Shown: piece after piece, positions 1 through 61,096 of the stretch
How the letters are laid out: every line of letters begins with the position of its first letter
Position numbering within the stretch: position 1 is the stretch's first letter
Program-made: the position numbers and the translations under genes
Origin: Candidatus Saccharimonadota bacterium
GTDB taxonomy: Bacteria > Patescibacteriota > Saccharimonadia > Saccharimonadales > Saccharimonadaceae
Direction: 5' to 3'
Assembly (NCBI GenBank): GCA_017514765.1
Contig: JAFWIU010000009.1
Coordinates: 1 to 64,000, forward strand
DNA: 64,000 bases
The notes under the pieces: generated by a model
Seen by the model: only the letters and a program-made list of their open reading frames with translations
Told to the model about the DNA's origin: nothing
Database searches by the model: none

Positions 1-870
1 AGACCAACCAGCAAAGCCATAACCGGTTCTACTGAAGTTAGAGGCAAGTAAAGTTGCACTGGTAGCTGAGCTAGTGATAGATTGTTGTCCCATGGTACCT
101 TCTATATCATTAGCTACTGGTGAATAGCAGATTTTATTAGCGGGACAGTTAGCTATAGGGCCATCATGTGGTTCATTATTGTATGGATGCACCATAGTGT
201 ATTTAACTTGTCCTATATATGTATCAGCAGCTTGGTTGGAAGCAATGTAGGCTGCATAGGTGGTTTCTAGTTTAACGCCCAGTGTAGTATCAGTGGTTGA
301 GGAACCAGTATTAGCATGGTATTCAGCTACTTTGGTATAAGTAGATGGTACTATGTTCCAAGCACTATAGCTATTAGTAATAGTAAGGTTCTCAGGATTG
401 TAGGTGACTGGATCTCCTGAGAGTGGGTTATCTACTTTGTTTAGTTTCATGGACCAGTTTGAGATAGTATCCCCACTAGCATAGGCTTTAGTAGAGATAG
501 TACCATTCGTATTACTGCCTACTAGTTTAGTGTGGTTCTCACTATCATATGAATTACCAGTAAAGCCTATAGCATAGATAGCAAAGCCATTATCATCATT
601 ACAAATAGCAGTTAGAGTAGTCTTACCGATACCGTTTTCATATTCACTACCACTAGCACCTGAGTAAGTACCTGGATTTAGTGTAGCTGTATGGTTGGTG
701 CCAGTACCGTTCATAGTACAAGCTACTGGAACAGTTAATTGTACTGTATCTATAACTTCGTCATTATCAGCAGAAACAGTAGAGGAAGATAAAGCTATGC
801 CAGAAAGAAGTGTGATGCTAATGATAATATATACTAGAGATGCAGAAGAATTAGGCATGAGCTTGTTCAT
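1..870 (-). CDS. Secreted repeat surface protein, C-terminus cut by window edge
   Basis: The gene starts at the ATG at 868-870 and stays open to base 1 (290 codons), so its C-terminus is outside the window. The N-terminus has a hydrophobic signal-like segment (SLVYIIISITLLSGIALSSS) ending near VSA. The body is Thr/Ser/Asn-rich and resembles the N-terminal modules of the surface proteins at 21718-22914 and 28334-32017. The last visible residues (FSRTGYGFAGWS) look like an InlB-type B repeat, so more repeats probably follow. An extended -10 (TGCTATACT) ends 6 nt before the ATG, suggesting a leaderless transcript. Probable role: adhesin or host-contact protein; the ligand cannot be read from sequence. 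Confidence 0.75.
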   Translation of the reverse strand, partial: MNKLMPNSSASLVYIIISITLLSGIALSSSTVSADNDEVIDTVQLTVPVACTMNGTGTNHTATLNPGTYSGASGSEYENGIGKTTLTAICNDDNGFAIYAIGFTGNSYDSENHTKLVGSNTNGTISTKAYASGDTISNWSMKLNKVDNPLSGDPVTYNPENLTITNSYSAWNIVPSTYTKVAEYHANTGSSTTDTTLGVKLETTYAAYIASNQAADTYIGQVKYTMVHPYNNEPHDGPIANCPANKICYSPVANDIEGTMGQQSITSSATSATLLASNFSRTGYGFAGWS

Positions 871-1397: not shown

Positions 1398-1946
1398 CTA
1401 TTCTACCGAGAGGATTTTGGCGGTGCCGAGTTCGAGGTGGAGGAGGCGCTGATTTTTGGAGCCACGGTATTTGAGACTAAGGTCACGCTGTTTTAGAATA
1501 AAGGGACCGTCAATGATAGCATCGAGAGATTTGAGGAGTTCCCAAGGTTCCTTGCCGTATTCTTTAATAATCTCATAAGTAAAGCCGGAGAAGCTCCAGA
1601 CATTCCAGCCAAGTTCCTGACGAACCCAGTCGGCGATTTCTTTGCAGGCTTTCGCTTGGACGAACGGTTCCCCACCGCAAAAGGTGAGGCCGGCTTGGCC
1701 TTTGAATTTACTGAGGCGTTCTTTAACCTCGTCGATTTCGACAAGGAAGCCGGCTTCATAGTCCCAAGTTTCGGGATTCTGGCAACCCTTGCAATGATTA
1801 GGACAGCCCTGAGTCCAGAGGACGGCGCGGAGGCCGTCGCCGTTCACGATATTATCGTGCTCGAGAGGGCCGCTCAGACGGATAAAACCGTCTGGTGTGT
1901 CGAGTTGTTTGGCAATCTTTTCTAGTGAAATCTTGCGCCAATCCAT
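1398..1946 (-). CDS. nrdG: Anaerobic ribonucleotide reductase activating enzyme (radical SAM)
   Basis: This 182-residue protein has the radical-SAM cluster motif CPNHCKGC (CX3CX2C) near residue 48, preceded by the family's GLRAVLWTQG strand, and a downstream FCGGEP glycine-rich motif that binds S-adenosylmethionine. NrdG uses a [4Fe-4S] cluster and SAM to abstract a hydrogen from a glycine in class III ribonucleotide reductase, making the glycyl radical. Its start overlaps the nrdD stop by one base (TAATG), so the two are translationally coupled. Length is normal for the family. Because NrdD here lacks the glycyl-radical segment, the substrate is probably the separate protein at 40608-41048. 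Confidence 0.95.
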   Translation of the reverse strand: MDWRKISLEKIAKQLDTPDGFIRLSGPLEHDNIVNGDGLRAVLWTQGCPNHCKGCQNPETWDYEAGFLVEIDEVKERLSKFKGQAGLTFCGGEPFVQAKACKEIADWVRQELGWNVWSFSGFTYEIIKEYGKEPWELLKSLDAIIDGPFILKQRDLSLKYRGSKNQRLLHLELGTAKILSVE

Positions 1947-4138
1947 TATTCCCCTTTCGCGCAGCTGCAGACTTTCTCGAATGGGAGGTCGCCTTCGAGA
2001 CGGCCACAGTGTGGGCAGCGGTCACCGGTAATGATGCCGGAGAAGCCACAGACTGGGTCGCGATCGACTGGATGGTTGACGGAACCGTAGCCGATGCCTT
2101 CGTCGTGCATTTTGCGGATGACGGCTTCGAAGGCAGCGATATTCTGTGACGGATCACCATCAAGTTCGATGTAGGTGATGTGGCCAGCATTACAGAGGTT
2201 ATGATAGGGTGCTTCAATCTCAATTTTCTCAAAAGCAGAGATCGGGAAGTAAACTGGTACGTGGAACGAGTTAGTGTAAAACTCGCGGTCGGTGACGCCT
2301 GGAATTTTGCCGAATTCCTTGCGGTCAATCTTAGTGAAGCGGCCGGCGATTCCTTCGGCTGGGGTGGCAAGAAGGCTGAAGTTGAGTTTGTACTTCTTGC
2401 AGTATTCATCACATTTCTCACGCATGTGGGTGATGATGTCGAGACCGAGTTCGCGGGCATCGGCGTCTTCGCCGTGGTGTTTGCCGACCATGGCGACGAG
2501 CGTCTCGGCGAGGCCGATGAAGCCGATGGAGAGTGTGCCGTGCTTAATCACATCACGGAGAGTGTCGTTCCAGCCGAGCTTCTCGGAGCCGAACCAGTTC
2601 CCTTGCCCCATCAGGAATGGGAAGTTGCGGACGTGCTGATTGGCTTGGAATTCGAAGCGCTCTAAGAGCTCATCCTTCACGAGGTCCATTTTCTCGTCGA
2701 GTTCTTTATAGAAACCATCCCAGTCGGCTTCTTTGCGTTCGCCGAGGCAGATACCGTGTTTGATACCGATACGGACGAGGTTGACTGTAGTGAAGGAGAG
2801 GTTACCACGACCGGTGACGATACCATCAGATTCTGGGAAGACCGAAGCGAAGACGCGAGTGCGACAACCCATAGTGGCAATCTCAGTGCGATAGTCGCCC
2901 TTCTTGTAATATTTGAGATTATATGGCGCATCGACGAAGCAGAAGTTCGGGAAGAGGCGCTTAGCAGAAACTTCCATAGACTTCTTGAAAAGGTCATAGT
3001 TGGGATCTTCGGGATTGTAATTAATTCCCTCTTTGACCTTGAAGATACTAATTGGGAAAATTGGTGTCTCGCCTTTACCAAGACCATTTTCAGTAGCAAC
3101 GAGTAGGTACTTGGAAATGAGGCGACCAGCTGGAGAGGTGTCAGTGCCAAAGTTAATACTGGTAAATGGCACCTGAGCACCAGCACGCGAGTGCATGGTA
3201 TTGAGATTATGGACGAAGCCTTCCATGGCTTGGAGGGTTTCACGCTCGACGTCTTCGTTCGAGGCATCGACAACTTCCTTGGGCCATTTAGCCTTGGCGA
3301 GTTTGTCGTCGTCGCCGTATTCGTAGGAATCTTTGACGTCGAGGTCTAATTTCTTGCCGGTGAATTTGTTATATTTGTCGAGATTTTTCTTAAGGGCTTT
3401 GCGGAAGGACTTATTAACCCCTGGAGCCATCGCATAATCGAAGTTCGGGATAGACTGGCCGCCGTGCTGTTCGTTCTGATTGGCTTGAAGCAGAATGGCA
3501 GCTAAAGCACCGTAAGAACTGATAGAATTCGGAGTGCGAAGATGGCCATGACCAGTGTTGAAACCCTTTTCGAACAAAACGAACGGGTCAGATTGGCAGC
3601 AAGTGAGGGTGCCGGTAGCATAGAAGTCGAGATCGTGAATATGAATATCGCCATTGTCATGAGCGGCGGCGATGTCAGGGCGTAAGAGTAGAGTCTTGGC
3701 AAAAACCTTGGAGCCTTCTGCACCGAATTGAAGCATTTTACCCATGGCAGAGTTACCGTCGACGTTGGCATTACTGCGCTTGACGTCGGAATCTTCGGAA
3801 GCATCAGCATGACTAATAGTGCGATAGATATTCATAAGGTCTGATTTGGCTTCGCGAATACGAGAACGCTCTTGACGGTATTGGATATATTCCCTGGCGG
3901 TTTTCTTGAAACTGGATTCCATCAAAACTTCTTCGACGATGTCTTGAATTTGCTCGACGCTAGGAGTCCTAGCCTTGATAGTCTCTTCGGCGCGCTTTAA
4001 AACCTTGTCAGATAGAGCCTTAGCGCGGTCGTATTTAAACTCTTCGGTCACAAGACCGGCTTTGGCAATAGCATCAGTAATCTTATCTGGATTGAAATTG
4101 ACGATTTTACCGTCACGTTTCTTGATTTTTTTGAACAT
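1946..4138 (-). CDS. nrdD: Anaerobic ribonucleoside-triphosphate reductase lacking the glycyl-radical domain
   Basis: A 730-residue class III ribonucleotide reductase that converts NTPs to dNTPs without oxygen. Residues 1-90 form an ATP-cone (MFKKIKKRDG start). The reductase barrel follows, with the cysteine pair at 180-181 (GTLTCCQSD) and the likely thiyl-radical cysteine at 425 (TMGCRTR). The C-terminus has metal-knuckle cysteines (697, 708, 711, 724, 726). In complete family members the knuckle is followed by a motif of type RRxTGYL carrying the radical glycine; here the chain ends at PFEKVCSCAKGE, exactly where that motif should start. The stop is clean and coupled to nrdG. A strong AGGAGG ribosome-binding site precedes the ATG. 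The missing part is found in the protein at 40608-41048. Confidence 0.95.
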   Translation of the reverse strand: MFKKIKKRDGKIVNFNPDKITDAIAKAGLVTEEFKYDRAKALSDKVLKRAEETIKARTPSVEQIQDIVEEVLMESSFKKTAREYIQYRQERSRIREAKSDLMNIYRTISHADASEDSDVKRSNANVDGNSAMGKMLQFGAEGSKVFAKTLLLRPDIAAAHDNGDIHIHDLDFYATGTLTCCQSDPFVLFEKGFNTGHGHLRTPNSISSYGALAAILLQANQNEQHGGQSIPNFDYAMAPGVNKSFRKALKKNLDKYNKFTGKKLDLDVKDSYEYGDDDKLAKAKWPKEVVDASNEDVERETLQAMEGFVHNLNTMHSRAGAQVPFTSINFGTDTSPAGRLISKYLLVATENGLGKGETPIFPISIFKVKEGINYNPEDPNYDLFKKSMEVSAKRLFPNFCFVDAPYNLKYYKKGDYRTEIATMGCRTRVFASVFPESDGIVTGRGNLSFTTVNLVRIGIKHGICLGERKEADWDGFYKELDEKMDLVKDELLERFEFQANQHVRNFPFLMGQGNWFGSEKLGWNDTLRDVIKHGTLSIGFIGLAETLVAMVGKHHGEDADARELGLDIITHMREKCDEYCKKYKLNFSLLATPAEGIAGRFTKIDRKEFGKIPGVTDREFYTNSFHVPVYFPISAFEKIEIEAPYHNLCNAGHITYIELDGDPSQNIAAFEAVIRKMHDEGIGYGSVNHPVDRDPVCGFSGIITGDRCPHCGRLEGDLPFEKVCSCAKGE

Positions 4139-40458: not shown

Positions 40459-40513
40459 ACACTATATTTAGCGTGATAATAGTCTTGACAGACACTATAT
40501 GTGGGGTTACAAT
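40459..40513 (+). promoter_or_regulatory. NrdR-box promoter of the glycyl-radical gene
   Basis: TTGACA (40485-40490) and TACAAT (40508-40513) are 17 bp apart. NrdR box ACACTATATGTGGGGT (40492-40507) fills the spacer, and box ACACTATATTTAGCGT (40459-40474) lies just upstream, with a 33-bp start-to-start offset. The upstream box differs by one base from the box at 4239-4224 of nrdD. Confidence 0.85.
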
Positions 40514-40607
40514 AGGTTGTAGGTAATGCTTATAAAATAACGAAAGCGAGTCTGAAGACTGTGTCAGAAGATGAGTATTTTGAAGACGCGCTAAAGAAAG
40601 GAAAACT

Positions 40608-41048
40608 ATGAAGAAAATAATATACCGAAACGCTAACGAGGTCGAGAACTTTGACTTGAAGCGGTTGGTGAAATCGATTTCGCGCTATGCGAAGGTTTCA
40701 GAGAAAGAAGTGAAGGAAGCATTGGCTGAATACGATCAATATGAGACAATGCACGTATCATGCCTTGTGGAAATTGGGATGAAATTAATTGGCGAGAAAG
40801 CTGGTGACAAGGCGATGAAGGAATATTTCAATGAACATTCCGAATGGTTTGACGAAGGTAAATTCGAGAGACTACGTCGTATTACGGGTTACTTAGTAGG
40901 GACTTTGGATCGCTGGAATGATGCCAAGAAGGCTGAAGAGAAAGCCCGCGTGAAGCATTGCGTGAATTCGTCGATTGATGATGCCGAGAGACTAGCAGCA
41001 CTTGAGACACAGGCGATGGAACAGAATGTGGCATACGCAAGAGCATAG
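40608..41048 (+). CDS. Stand-alone glycyl-radical subunit for class III ribonucleotide reductase
   Basis: A 146-residue protein. Residues 85-117 read like the C-terminal radical segment of class III reductases: FERLRRITGYLVGTL, then DRWNDAKKAEEKARVKH, with Gly94 as the radical candidate. The N-terminal 75 residues (IIYRNANEVENFDLKRLVKSI) look like a worn ATP-cone. The segment begins at the position where the NrdD encoded at 1946-4138 ends. An AAAGGAAAA site precedes the ATG, NrdR boxes control the promoter, and a terminator follows. Inferred role: NrdG makes the radical here and this protein docks on NrdD in trans, as GrcA does for pyruvate formate-lyase. Confidence 0.75.
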   Translation: MKKIIYRNANEVENFDLKRLVKSISRYAKVSEKEVKEALAEYDQYETMHVSCLVEIGMKLIGEKAGDKAMKEYFNEHSEWFDEGKFERLRRITGYLVGTLDRWNDAKKAEEKARVKHCVNSSIDDAERLAALETQAMEQNVAYARA

Positions 41049-41065
41049 ATATAATTAGTTGTTAT

Positions 41066-41092
41066 GAATAGCAGCCTTGGAGGCTGCTATTT
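41066..41092 (+). terminator. Terminator of the glycyl-radical gene
   Basis: A 10-bp perfect stem AATAGCAGCC/GGCTGCTATT with a 5-nt loop, followed by TTTTG on the plus strand. Confidence 0.8.
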
Positions 41093-41122
41093 TGATATAT
41101 ATCCGTGATAATCTTTTTAGAA

Positions 41123-58412: not shown

Positions 58413-59381
58413 TTAAGTGGCTGGGGGAGTGGTGGGAGATGGTGGCTCAGGTGTAGTAGGGGGAGGGGTTGGTGCAGTAGGTGAAGGGGTAGTTGGCGTA
58501 GCTGGAGTAGTTGGAGGGGTAGTTGGTGCTGGGGGAGTTGGTTCAGGAGTGGCAGGAGGAGTGGCCGGAGCTGGAGTGGTTGGCGTAGCTGGAGCGGGTG
58601 CGGGAGATGGTGGTTCTGGTGCGGTTGGAGCGGGTGCGGGAGCGGTAGGCTCAGGTGTGGCGGGTGTAGGTGCAGGTGCGGTAGGAGCGGGTGCGGGTTC
58701 AGCCGCTGCTGCAGGCGTCGGTGCCGGCGCAGGTTCAGCATAGTTTTCGGACGGAGCTTCAAGTTCGGCTTGTTTTTCTTTGTATTCCTTGTCCTCTTCT
58801 TTCTGAACTTCAGCATAGGCCTTTTTGAGCTTTCTGATGTGGCTCGATGTAATAATAATCTTAATGACAAGATACAGGAAGCAGATTGGACCGAGCATCA
58901 TGGCAATCATGGATTTGAGTAGGAACCAGGCGAGCGAAAGGATGCTCATGAAGAAGCCTTTGCCTTGGTATGTCACGTAGCCATAATCGGTTTCTATGGT
59001 GTAAATGTTATCGTCATAGCCTTTGTTCGGATCCCCACCTTTGTTGAAGTTCATTGCGAGAAAGCCGACTGGAGCGAGAGTAAACATAATAATAAATGGC
59101 CAGTAGGTAGGAATATCTAAATGGTTTGCCATAAAAAAGGCTATAGTGATAATAGCGCCTAGTACTAGGCCGCCAAAAAGCTTACCGTATAGTTTGCCGC
59201 GGTATGCGGTTAAATCGTCACGAAGTTTGTTATAGCGCTCCTCTAGAGAAGCAGAATTGCTAGCGTGGTTGCACTCGTTACAGATGCCGCCATTTTGCTG
59301 AAAACAATCTTTGCAGAGGCCCTTACCGCAGTTTTTACATTGACCGACCGCTTCGCGATCAATATGATTAAAGCATTTCAT
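58413..59381 (-). CDS. B-box zinc-finger membrane protein with Pro/Ala/Thr tail
   Basis: A 322-residue protein. The first 40 residues hold a B-box-like zinc finger (CFNHIDREAVGQCKNCGKGLCKDC, then CNECNH as ligands). Four membrane helices follow (about residues 68-180), then a charged coiled coil and about 110 residues of PAPTP/TPATPE low-complexity sequence. The zinc finger is intact, unlike NrdR and DnaG. No function is known. The tail's repeats make the opposite strand Gly/Val-rich, which is not a gene. Confidence 0.65.
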   Translation of the reverse strand: MKCFNHIDREAVGQCKNCGKGLCKDCFQQNGGICNECNHASNSASLEERYNKLRDDLTAYRGKLYGKLFGGLVLGAIITIAFFMANHLDIPTYWPFIIMFTLAPVGFLAMNFNKGGDPNKGYDDNIYTIETDYGYVTYQGKGFFMSILSLAWFLLKSMIAMMLGPICFLYLVIKIIITSSHIRKLKKAYAEVQKEEDKEYKEKQAELEAPSENYAEPAPAPTPAAAAEPAPAPTAPAPTPATPEPTAPAPAPTAPEPPSPAPAPATPTTPAPATPPATPEPTPPAPTTPPTTPATPTTPSPTAPTPPPTTPEPPSPTTPPAT

Positions 59382-59440
59382 AGAAAATCCTTATGTTATA
59401 TAGTTAGATTATAACGTTATTCTGAATAATGGTCAACAAA

Positions 59441-59471
59441 AATCATCCTTCTAACGGCTAGAAGGATGATT
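59441..59471 (-). terminator. ndk terminator
   Basis: A perfect 13-bp stem AATCATCCTTCTA/TAGAAGGATGATT with a 5-nt loop, followed by TTTTTG on the minus strand. Confidence 0.85.
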
Positions 59472-59477
59472 GTTGGA

Positions 59478-60014
59478 TTAGCGAGTATATTTCTCGTTGA
59501 GATCGGAATAATCGTAAAGCTCATTAGCATTGAACCAAAGGTCGATTTCCTTCTTGGCTTCCTCGAGGGAGCCGGAAGCATGAACGAGGTTCGGCACGCC
59601 AGTGCCCTTAGCATCAGAATAGCCGAAGGACATATGACTGAAATCGCCACGGATGGTGCCCATCTCAGCGGATTTAGGCTCAGTTGGACCGACAATCTTC
59701 CGGACGAGAGGTTGAGCTTCGACACCTTCTAGGACCATGGCTATGACTGGACCAGTCATCATGTATTCGACATTATAGCGGAAAGCTTGCTCACCACGAC
59801 GCGTAATCATCTGGCCGATGTCTTCATAGTGCTGACGATAGAGATGTTCGTCTGGCATGACCATTTTCATACCGACAATCTTGAGACCGACACGTTCGAA
59901 ACGCTGAATCACTTCACCAATAATTCCCCGCTGGACGGTGTCCGGTTTCAGAACCACTAGGGTGCGTTGGATGTAATCTTCTTGTTTTGCTTTTGCCTTT
60001 TCTGCTTTTGCCAT
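59478..60014 (-). CDS. ndk: Nucleoside diphosphate kinase
   Basis: A 178-residue enzyme balancing NTP and dNTP pools. LVVLKPDTVQRGIIGEVIQRFE and GTIRGDFSHMS are conserved, and the phosphorylated His is in NLVHASGS, where most bacteria have NxxHGSDS. It is longer than usual because of an insert (about 15 residues, SFGYSDAKGTG) before the His and a C-terminal extension, features common in archaeal and CPR forms. Confidence 0.95.
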   Translation of the reverse strand: MAKAEKAKAKQEDYIQRTLVVLKPDTVQRGIIGEVIQRFERVGLKIVGMKMVMPDEHLYRQHYEDIGQMITRRGEQAFRYNVEYMMTGPVIAMVLEGVEAQPLVRKIVGPTEPKSAEMGTIRGDFSHMSFGYSDAKGTGVPNLVHASGSLEEAKKEIDLWFNANELYDYSDLNEKYTR

Positions 60015-60094
60015 AAAAACTCCTTTTTGATATTATACTCTAGTTGTGGAGATACGGCAACACACAGATTACATAACGAGTATGGAGCGAGGTA

Positions 60095-61096
60095 TTATTC
60101 AGTGACGTCTGTGGGCGTTACTTCGATGGTTTCGGCGTCAGTCTCGGCTGGGGTCTCTGTAGGGATTTCTTCAACGGTTTCGATAGCTTCTGTGACTTCG
60201 GTATTTTCTGAAGCTTCATGAGTTGGAGCCTGATAGGTGGAAGCTTTGTAAACTTTATAGGTCGCATTTTGCATTTGCTCCGGTGTCATGACCGTATAAA
60301 CGAAGGCTTGGAAATGTTGAGTATCACCCGGTTGGATACCTTCAGCATAGAGTGCGGAAGTATCAAGTATATTACCGTCGCGATCTTCTGCGGAAATAAT
60401 GATGGCGAGCGACTGCGTTTCGTTGGAGATATTCTTGATGTGGACTGGAACTACATCGCTCGAGATTTCGTTATCGTCAACCTTTTGATAACCGTCAATA
60501 GTGACTTCGGCGTATTGGTCGAGAGTTTCTTTGGTGGTTTTGTCATCTTCTTCGGTAGGCGCTAGGGTTTGGCTGGTGTTGTTGGTGGGGCCAACCGATT
60601 CTGAACCTGAGTTCGCTCCTTCACCTTGGCTGCGATTGCTGAAGGCAACGGCGAGTATGATAGCGACGACTAAGACAACTATGGCTACGCAAGCACCGAT
60701 GATAAGCGGTAGATTTTTATTGGATTTCTTATCGGATTTGGTGGCAGCAGGTCTGGCTTCAGCCGATGCAGTGTTGGTGGGTGCAGCGGCGGGTCTGGCG
60801 GGTGTAGTAGTTGGTTGTGTAGCTGCTGGGGATACGGTTGATTTAGCCGTTACGGTGGCTGGCTTAGCCACTGATGCGGCAGGCTTCACTGGTACTGCGG
60901 TTGGTTTGGCTGCCACAGTAGCTGATTTAGCTGTTGCGGTAGCTGGACGAGCACCATTTACTGCAACCCTAGTGGGTGCGGTAGCGGGCCTAGCTGACGC
61001 TGCTATGGGTTTGGTTCTAGCTGCACTAACCACTGGTCGGCCGGGAGTAGTTACTCTAGGTTTTTGACTTGGAAAAAGTGATTTCTTATTATCCAT
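60095..61096 (-). CDS. Single-pass membrane protein with Ala/Pro/Thr/Lys cytoplasmic tail
   Basis: The start at 61096 (MDNKKSLFPSQ) gives 333 residues and has GGAGGA upstream. Residues 1-150 are basic Ala/Pro/Thr/Val-rich repeats built on (A)AKPAxV, which may bind acidic surfaces. A membrane helix (about 155-180, LPLIIGACVAIVVLVVAIILAVAF) leads to an outer domain like DUF5067/FxLYD proteins (VPVHIKNISNETQSLAI) and an acidic Thr/Glu tail. Function unknown. Confidence 0.6.
   Translation of the reverse strand: MDNKKSLFPSQKPRVTTPGRPVVSAARTKPIAASARPATAPTRVAVNGARPATATAKSATVAAKPTAVPVKPAASVAKPATVTAKSTVSPAATQPTTTPARPAAAPTNTASAEARPAATKSDKKSNKNLPLIIGACVAIVVLVVAIILAVAFSNRSQGEGANSGSESVGPTNNTSQTLAPTEEDDKTTKETLDQYAEVTIDGYQKVDDNEISSDVVPVHIKNISNETQSLAIIISAEDRDGNILDTSALYAEGIQPGDTQHFQAFVYTVMTPEQMQNATYKVYKASTYQAPTHEASENTEVTEAIETVEEIPTETPAETDAETIEVTPTDVTE

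Follow-up and report, generated by a model that had tools for sequence, protein, structure and literature searches.

The radical glycine of class III ribonucleotide reductase (RNR) has so far been regarded as part of the catalytic chain, NrdD, and because it lies within that chain oxygen destroys an enzyme of some 700 residues. In the known NrdD/NrdG systems, for example those from Prevotella copri (PMC11226230), Streptococcus thermophilus (PMC12662201), T. maritima and phage T4, the catalytic chain itself ends in the radical loop. The arrangement differs in the 64,000 nucleotides of a Candidatus Saccharimonadota bacterium analysed here (contig JAFWIU010000009.1, hereafter the window). The system in the window shares with the known ones the ATP-cone, barrel, thiyl cysteine, NxN flap, HxHD motif, zinc knuckle, NrdG and the sequence of the radical loop, but the loop is encoded by another gene about 36 kb from nrdD, where it is fused to a second, predicted ATP-cone-like domain. 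Since the two genes together cover the NRDD family profile, the pair is called here a split class III RNR. It is highly probable that the two proteins form an obligate two-subunit enzyme in which the small one provides its glycine, Gly94, in trans.

YfiD/GrcA and phage T4 Y06I (PMC8683613) are likewise small copies of the glycyl-radical end of a large enzyme, with a phage version as here, and activation by the enzyme's own activase and work in trans are proposed for the small protein on the same pattern. However, the small protein is of the NrdD type and has an ATP-cone-like N-terminus; the Gly_radical domain (PF01228) typical of pyruvate formate-lyase (PFL) has no match in it or anywhere in the genome, and it is not a member of the YfiD/GrcA family. 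YfiD/GrcA restores an oxygen-damaged enzyme that has its own radical domain, whereas the window NrdD has none, which would make the part obligatory. Relatives with a full-length NrdD could fit a YfiD-like repair use. Only the PFL spare parts have been validated, and spare parts for other glycyl radical enzymes have been a matter of speculation (PMC8683613). No class III RNR with its radical subunit on a separate gene, and no spare part for NrdD, was found in the open-access literature. The chemistry would belong to a known class, and it is the detached radical subunit that appears to be without an earlier report.

Other RNRs show partial likenesses. In the split class II NrdJa/NrdJb of Pseudomonas aeruginosa (PMC4520616, PMC5704485) the C-terminal domain is also on a separate gene, but NrdJb is the cysteine-rich re-reduction domain of a B12 enzyme and not a radical carrier. 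NrdB of Leeuwenhoekiella blandensis (PDB 5OLK) has its ATP-cone on the radical-carrying subunit and not on the catalytic one; however, it is a class I diiron/tyrosyl protein with a functional nucleotide-binding cone and an unrelated fold. Phage nrdD genes broken into separate reading frames have been described (PMC3653736). These cases are discussed with introns, inteins, homing endonucleases or unexplained breaks, and the word "glycyl" is absent from the text.

The catalytic chain and a proposed separate radical subunit

The genes for the catalytic subunit and its activase lie at one end of the window:

1946..4138 (-): nrdD, catalytic subunit without a glycyl-radical end, 730 residues; ATP-cone 4-92, NRDD domain 123-713
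2864..2866 (-): Cys425 codon, within GCRT; by homology the presumed thiyl-radical cysteine
2006..2050 (-): zinc knuckle with C697, C708 and C711, from sequence and conservation
1946..1980 (-): short new stretch that ends NrdD past PFE; 18 of 19 genomes with a truncated NrdD have a Cys at 726
1398..1946 (-): nrdG, radical SAM activase, 182 residues; above the cut-off of TIGR02491 (NrdG), start overlapping the nrdD stop

The C-terminus of NrdD reads ...DPVCGFSGIITGDRCPHCGRLEGDLPFEKVCSCAKGE / ...CPHCGRLEGDLPFEKVCSCAKGE, directly past the zinc knuckle. A sequence-only reading of the window had claimed that the chain ends before its glycyl-radical site, and the profile search bears this out: the Pfam NRDD profile (PF13597, 603 bits) is covered at positions 2-529 of 562, with no glycyl-radical motif on the same chain, and the loop is the only part of the family profile that is absent. 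NrdD ends at the identical place in 18 other genomes, and the stop is therefore not a sequencing error. The protein scores above the cut-offs of NF005497 and TIGR02487, the family profiles for the class III catalytic subunit, and its N-terminal ATP-cone matches PF03477 with an E-value of 6e-21. The GCRT motif is kept in all 19 truncated and all 41 full-length NrdDs, and the HxHD motif and the NxN flap are also kept in the truncated ones, the tails of which differ in length and sequence. The ATP-cone and Cys425 are thus intact as the sequence-only reading had it, but the zinc knuckle has three cysteines and not four; the first position is Asp and not the usual Cys in the window NrdD and in every full-length relative examined. 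The nrdD stop TAA (1948-1946) and the nrdG ATG (1946-1944) do overlap, by one base. The statement that there is no frameshifted tail also held, as a search of the forward frames over the 1.5 kb past the nrdD stop found no glycyl-like motif in any of the 19 genomes.

The missing motif, overlooked in that reading, is in the same window. A whole-genome profile search matched positions 532-562 of PF13597 at 40860-40958 (+), over the curated cut-off, in a small gene whose product carries FERLRRITGYLVG including Gly94. Its features are:

40608..41048 (+): separate radical subunit, 146 residues; predicted ATP-cone-like domain 1-80, glycyl-radical loop 85-117, helical tail
40887..40889 (+): Gly94 codon, within RRITGYLVG; by homology the presumed radical glycine
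40485..40513 (+): TTGACA-17-TACAAT ahead of the gene, promoter-like by agreement with the consensus alone (11 of 12 bases)
40592..40605 (+): AAAGGA ahead of the start codon (ATG), Shine-Dalgarno-like; most relatives have a similar purine-rich site
41049..41105 (+): hairpin after the stop with a short T-rich run behind it, a likely terminator (fold energy -19.9 kcal/mol, z -4.2); not flagged in a consensus terminator scan

The two genes are complementary, one genome having profile positions 2-529 on nrdD and 532-562 on the small gene, and the genome, estimated to be 99.2% complete, has no other NRDD match. No class I or II RNR (PF02867, PF00268) is present in the genome. The claim that such an NrdD cannot work alone is supported, and a partner gene that supplies the missing motif exists. 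Gly94 is invariant in 42 aligned homologues, viral ones included, as are the residues flanking it, and the radical loop is the most conserved part of the small protein. The gene sits between mutM and polA. This setting is near-universal across 80 named loci (mutM in 79, polA in 76). Their titles nearly all read Candidatus Saccharibacteria, and ruminant guts are the main source; Candidatus Nanosyncoccus alces is among them.

The N-terminal half of the small protein has no secure sequence match by Pfam, a custom hidden Markov model of 55 cones, hhalign or pairwise shuffles. None of the 42 family members matches PF03477, and hhalign against ATP-cones gave a probability of 8% or less. Support for an ATP-cone comes from the predicted structure. 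AlphaFold2 places residues 1-80 in the order b-b-a-a-b-a-a (block predicted local distance difference test values of 76-91), with the three-stranded cap and four-helix bundle of the ATP-cone fold. All 50 matches listed by Foldseek against the PDB are ATP-cone or RNR proteins (NrdR, ATP-cone NrdB, NrdD, NrdA; best E-value 4.6e-3), and the predicted fold of a viral homologue gave mainly RNR matches with weak E-values. The Lys and Arg of the KRDG hairpin touch the nucleotide in a known cone (PMC12662201). The small protein does not have this nucleotide-binding hairpin and has RNAN or PSDA-like sequences there instead. The first 80 residues are thus predicted to be an ATP-cone-like domain without the KRDG motif, probably a handle for docking or oligomerisation and not a nucleotide sensor. 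The small protein as a whole looks like both ends of NrdD with the barrel removed, and an internal deletion in a duplicated nrdD would be its simplest origin, a fusion being a possible alternative. For an origin from the NrdD of its own host, the 34-residue loop is too strongly constrained to discriminate, with 90% identity to the host's own cis copy versus 88% to others.

Apart from these genes, positions 1-870 (-) encode part of a protein that runs over the window edge; its N-terminus has a hydrophobic stretch, Pfam gives no match, and it is possibly a surface protein.

Distribution, phylogeny and selection

The family was surveyed in 245 genomes with an NrdD search and a profile of the standalone radical protein. 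Truncated NrdD occurs in 19 genomes, all from the genus of the window (g1), and the standalone protein is present in every one of them. Another 14 g1 genomes have a full-length NrdD, seven of them together with the standalone protein. In a second group (g8, 34 genomes sampled) all NrdDs are full-length and 22 genomes have the standalone protein. Altogether 48 standalone homologues were found in the family sample, never in a sampled genome without NrdD, and NrdD itself went unmatched in many genomes of the family. Relatives with the motif fused at the position where the window NrdD stops, which the sequence-only reading had named as evidence that would speak against it, therefore exist; a glycine in a corrected frame near the stop was not found.

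The truncated proteins group as one clade (support 100/99), nested among full-length relatives, in a tree built from 60 NrdD bodies. There was therefore a single truncation, and the lineage in which it took place has relatives that frequently carry the spare. Read together with the fused motif in relatives, the tree makes the truncation a derived state, with the motif now located on another gene. Pairwise distances of the standalone protein and NrdD correlate (Mantel r 0.84), a sign that the two were mainly inherited together.

Purifying selection acts on both proteins. Full-length NrdDs share 367 invariant columns, and 334 of these are the same in every truncated NrdD. In the truncated proteins drastic changes are confined to the region beyond residue 720 and the knuckle cysteines are unchanged. 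The median pairwise ratio of nonsynonymous to synonymous substitution rates (dN/dS) is 0.03 for truncated NrdD, 0.06 for the standalone protein and 0.03 for its radical loop, values that are rough as synonymous sites are near saturation. A cysteine at position 52 of the standalone protein is found in 19 of 19 hosts with a truncated NrdD versus 0 of 29 hosts with a full-length one. Together with Cys726 of NrdD it offers no more than a lead towards a contact or redox link, since each cysteine may be a single event.

Separate radical domains in other Patescibacteria and on viral contigs

A survey of 380 genomes of the phylum found NrdD and the glycyl end as separate matches in about 34 genomes from about 21 families outside the Saccharibacteria family of the window. 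The loci of 29 were read. In 28 of these NrdD stops past the zinc knuckle and a short open reading frame just downstream has a motif such as CEVYSRVVGYIRPV; several of the downstream frames have a strong Shine-Dalgarno site, and an nrdG motif follows close behind in 18 of the 29 loci. These splits are without the ATP-cone-like part and probably independent. In loci L033-L052 and L064-L072 the nrdD gene is cut after the zinc knuckle and a radical-domain gene of 45-90 residues adjoins it, often before nrdG. One genome (G282) has a full-length NrdD and an additional radical gene. The radical genes of G282 (L034) and G332 (L033) have extra CxxC motifs ahead of the radical loop. In six further genomes (G061, G113, G165, G205, G221, G239) NrdD frames of 1025-1557 residues with an interrupted profile match suggest inteins at several places.

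Small separate reading frames with NrdD-type radical domains are also found on viral contigs (L271-L317, for example L271:5998-6411 and L281:5977-6123), and it is possible that they are phage-borne radical carriers. Among 47 IMG/VR records retrieved with the standalone profile, an NrdD body is present in 7 and only an over-cut-off radical domain in 31; the records may be incomplete, and an NrdD missing from a contig is not necessarily missing from the phage. Four of the viral proteins (L271, L272, L274, L275) share the N-terminal domain of the small protein, and the whole L273 protein is identical to the L274 protein. Genes near those four encode terminase, portal, dihydrofolate reductase, single-strand binding protein or MazG. 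One viral record (G639, of L309) has a nearly full-length NrdD at 58452-60122 and a separate radical domain at 84926-85039, about 25 kb apart. The named and sequenced Eggerthella phage EL753P1 (L318, 2533-6081) has an NrdD that stops after the zinc knuckle. The radical-domain remnant downstream is out of frame with the annotated small open reading frame and may be broken.

Proposed mechanism, alternatives and significance

We infer the following course of activation, docking and catalysis. NrdD would contribute the barrel, the thiyl cysteine, the allosteric ATP-cone and the zinc knuckle. NrdG would form the glycyl radical on Gly94 while the small subunit is free or once it has docked, and the RRITGYLVG loop would then enter the NrdD barrel beside Cys425 and start catalysis in trans. 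The same loop occupies the barrel in cis in P. copri NrdD (PMC11226230), and a radical domain supplied in trans (YfiD) restores PFL activity (PMC8683613). The spare radical domain may have arisen beside an intact NrdD, perhaps through a duplicated nrdD that lost its middle, and one lineage would then have lost the cis domain and come to depend on the spare. In the full-length relatives the small protein would be a true spare part, and in the clade of the window it is the only candidate source of the radical.

Several points weigh against an obligate two-subunit enzyme. The co-occurrence in 19 genomes is one evolutionary event and not 19, the dN/dS values are rough for the reason given above, and the radical loop of the small protein alone has a low-confidence AlphaFold2 model. 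Saccharibacteria depend on a host, and uptake of deoxynucleotides is in principle open to them. Could the small protein then be a spare part only, for NrdD cleaved by oxygen, with the NrdD of this clade in decay and deoxynucleotides taken from a partner? Its presence beside an intact NrdD in g1 and g8 genomes and the many genomes of the family without an NrdD match agree with this, but the truncated NrdD evolves under strong purifying selection and keeps all catalytic motifs in 19 genomes with long separate histories, each of which has also retained the standalone protein, and this explanation is improbable. It is very improbable that the small protein carries no radical and acts as a regulator or inhibitor by mimicry of the NrdD radical loop and ATP-cone. 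ATP-cone folds are regulatory modules and homologues occur on viral contigs without NrdD, as an inhibitor might; however, conservation is highest in the radical loop, with Gly94 and its neighbours invariant, the KRDG nucleotide motif is absent, and the truncated NrdD would be left without a source of the glycyl radical.

The tail might also be rejoined to the NrdD chain by frameshifting, stop read-through, an intron or trans-splicing. Inteins or in-frame stops do occur in nrdD of other Patescibacteria, and mobile elements can split phage nrdD genes (PMC3653736). Frameshifting, read-through and splicing were rejected, as the forward frames of the first 1.5 kb beyond the nrdD stop are free of a glycyl motif in the 19 genomes. 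The standalone protein also has its own start, ribosome-binding site and predicted folded N-terminal domain, and the truncated tails vary in length and sequence, which leaves rejoining an extremely small chance. The genomes concerned are mostly metagenome-assembled, but nrdD and the radical gene share one contig in the window, and 19 species-level genomes, which come from independent studies and include the Candidatus Nanosyncoccus alces record, repeat the arrangement; the chance of an assembly or binning artefact is close to nil.

An obligate two-subunit class III RNR would be a natural two-component system for the study of glycine activation by NrdG and of radical transfer to the cysteine. 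It is also a warning for annotation, as NrdDs of this kind will be labelled truncated or inactive. Why should a lineage keep its radical glycine on a separate protein? The split may be advantageous as oxygen damage uses up only the small part; with the radical subunit detached, oxygen would destroy 146 residues only. The finding bears on the question raised by PFL, whether other glycyl radical enzymes have spare parts (PMC8683613), and relatives appear to show all stages, from no spare through a spare beside an intact enzyme to an obligatory partner. The chances are about even that the small protein is an exchangeable carrier of the glycyl radical in an obligate two-subunit enzyme, a minimal NrdD that began as a spare for oxygen damage, turned essential in one lineage of Saccharibacteria and is also carried by phages, where it would perhaps sustain host deoxynucleotide synthesis during infection.
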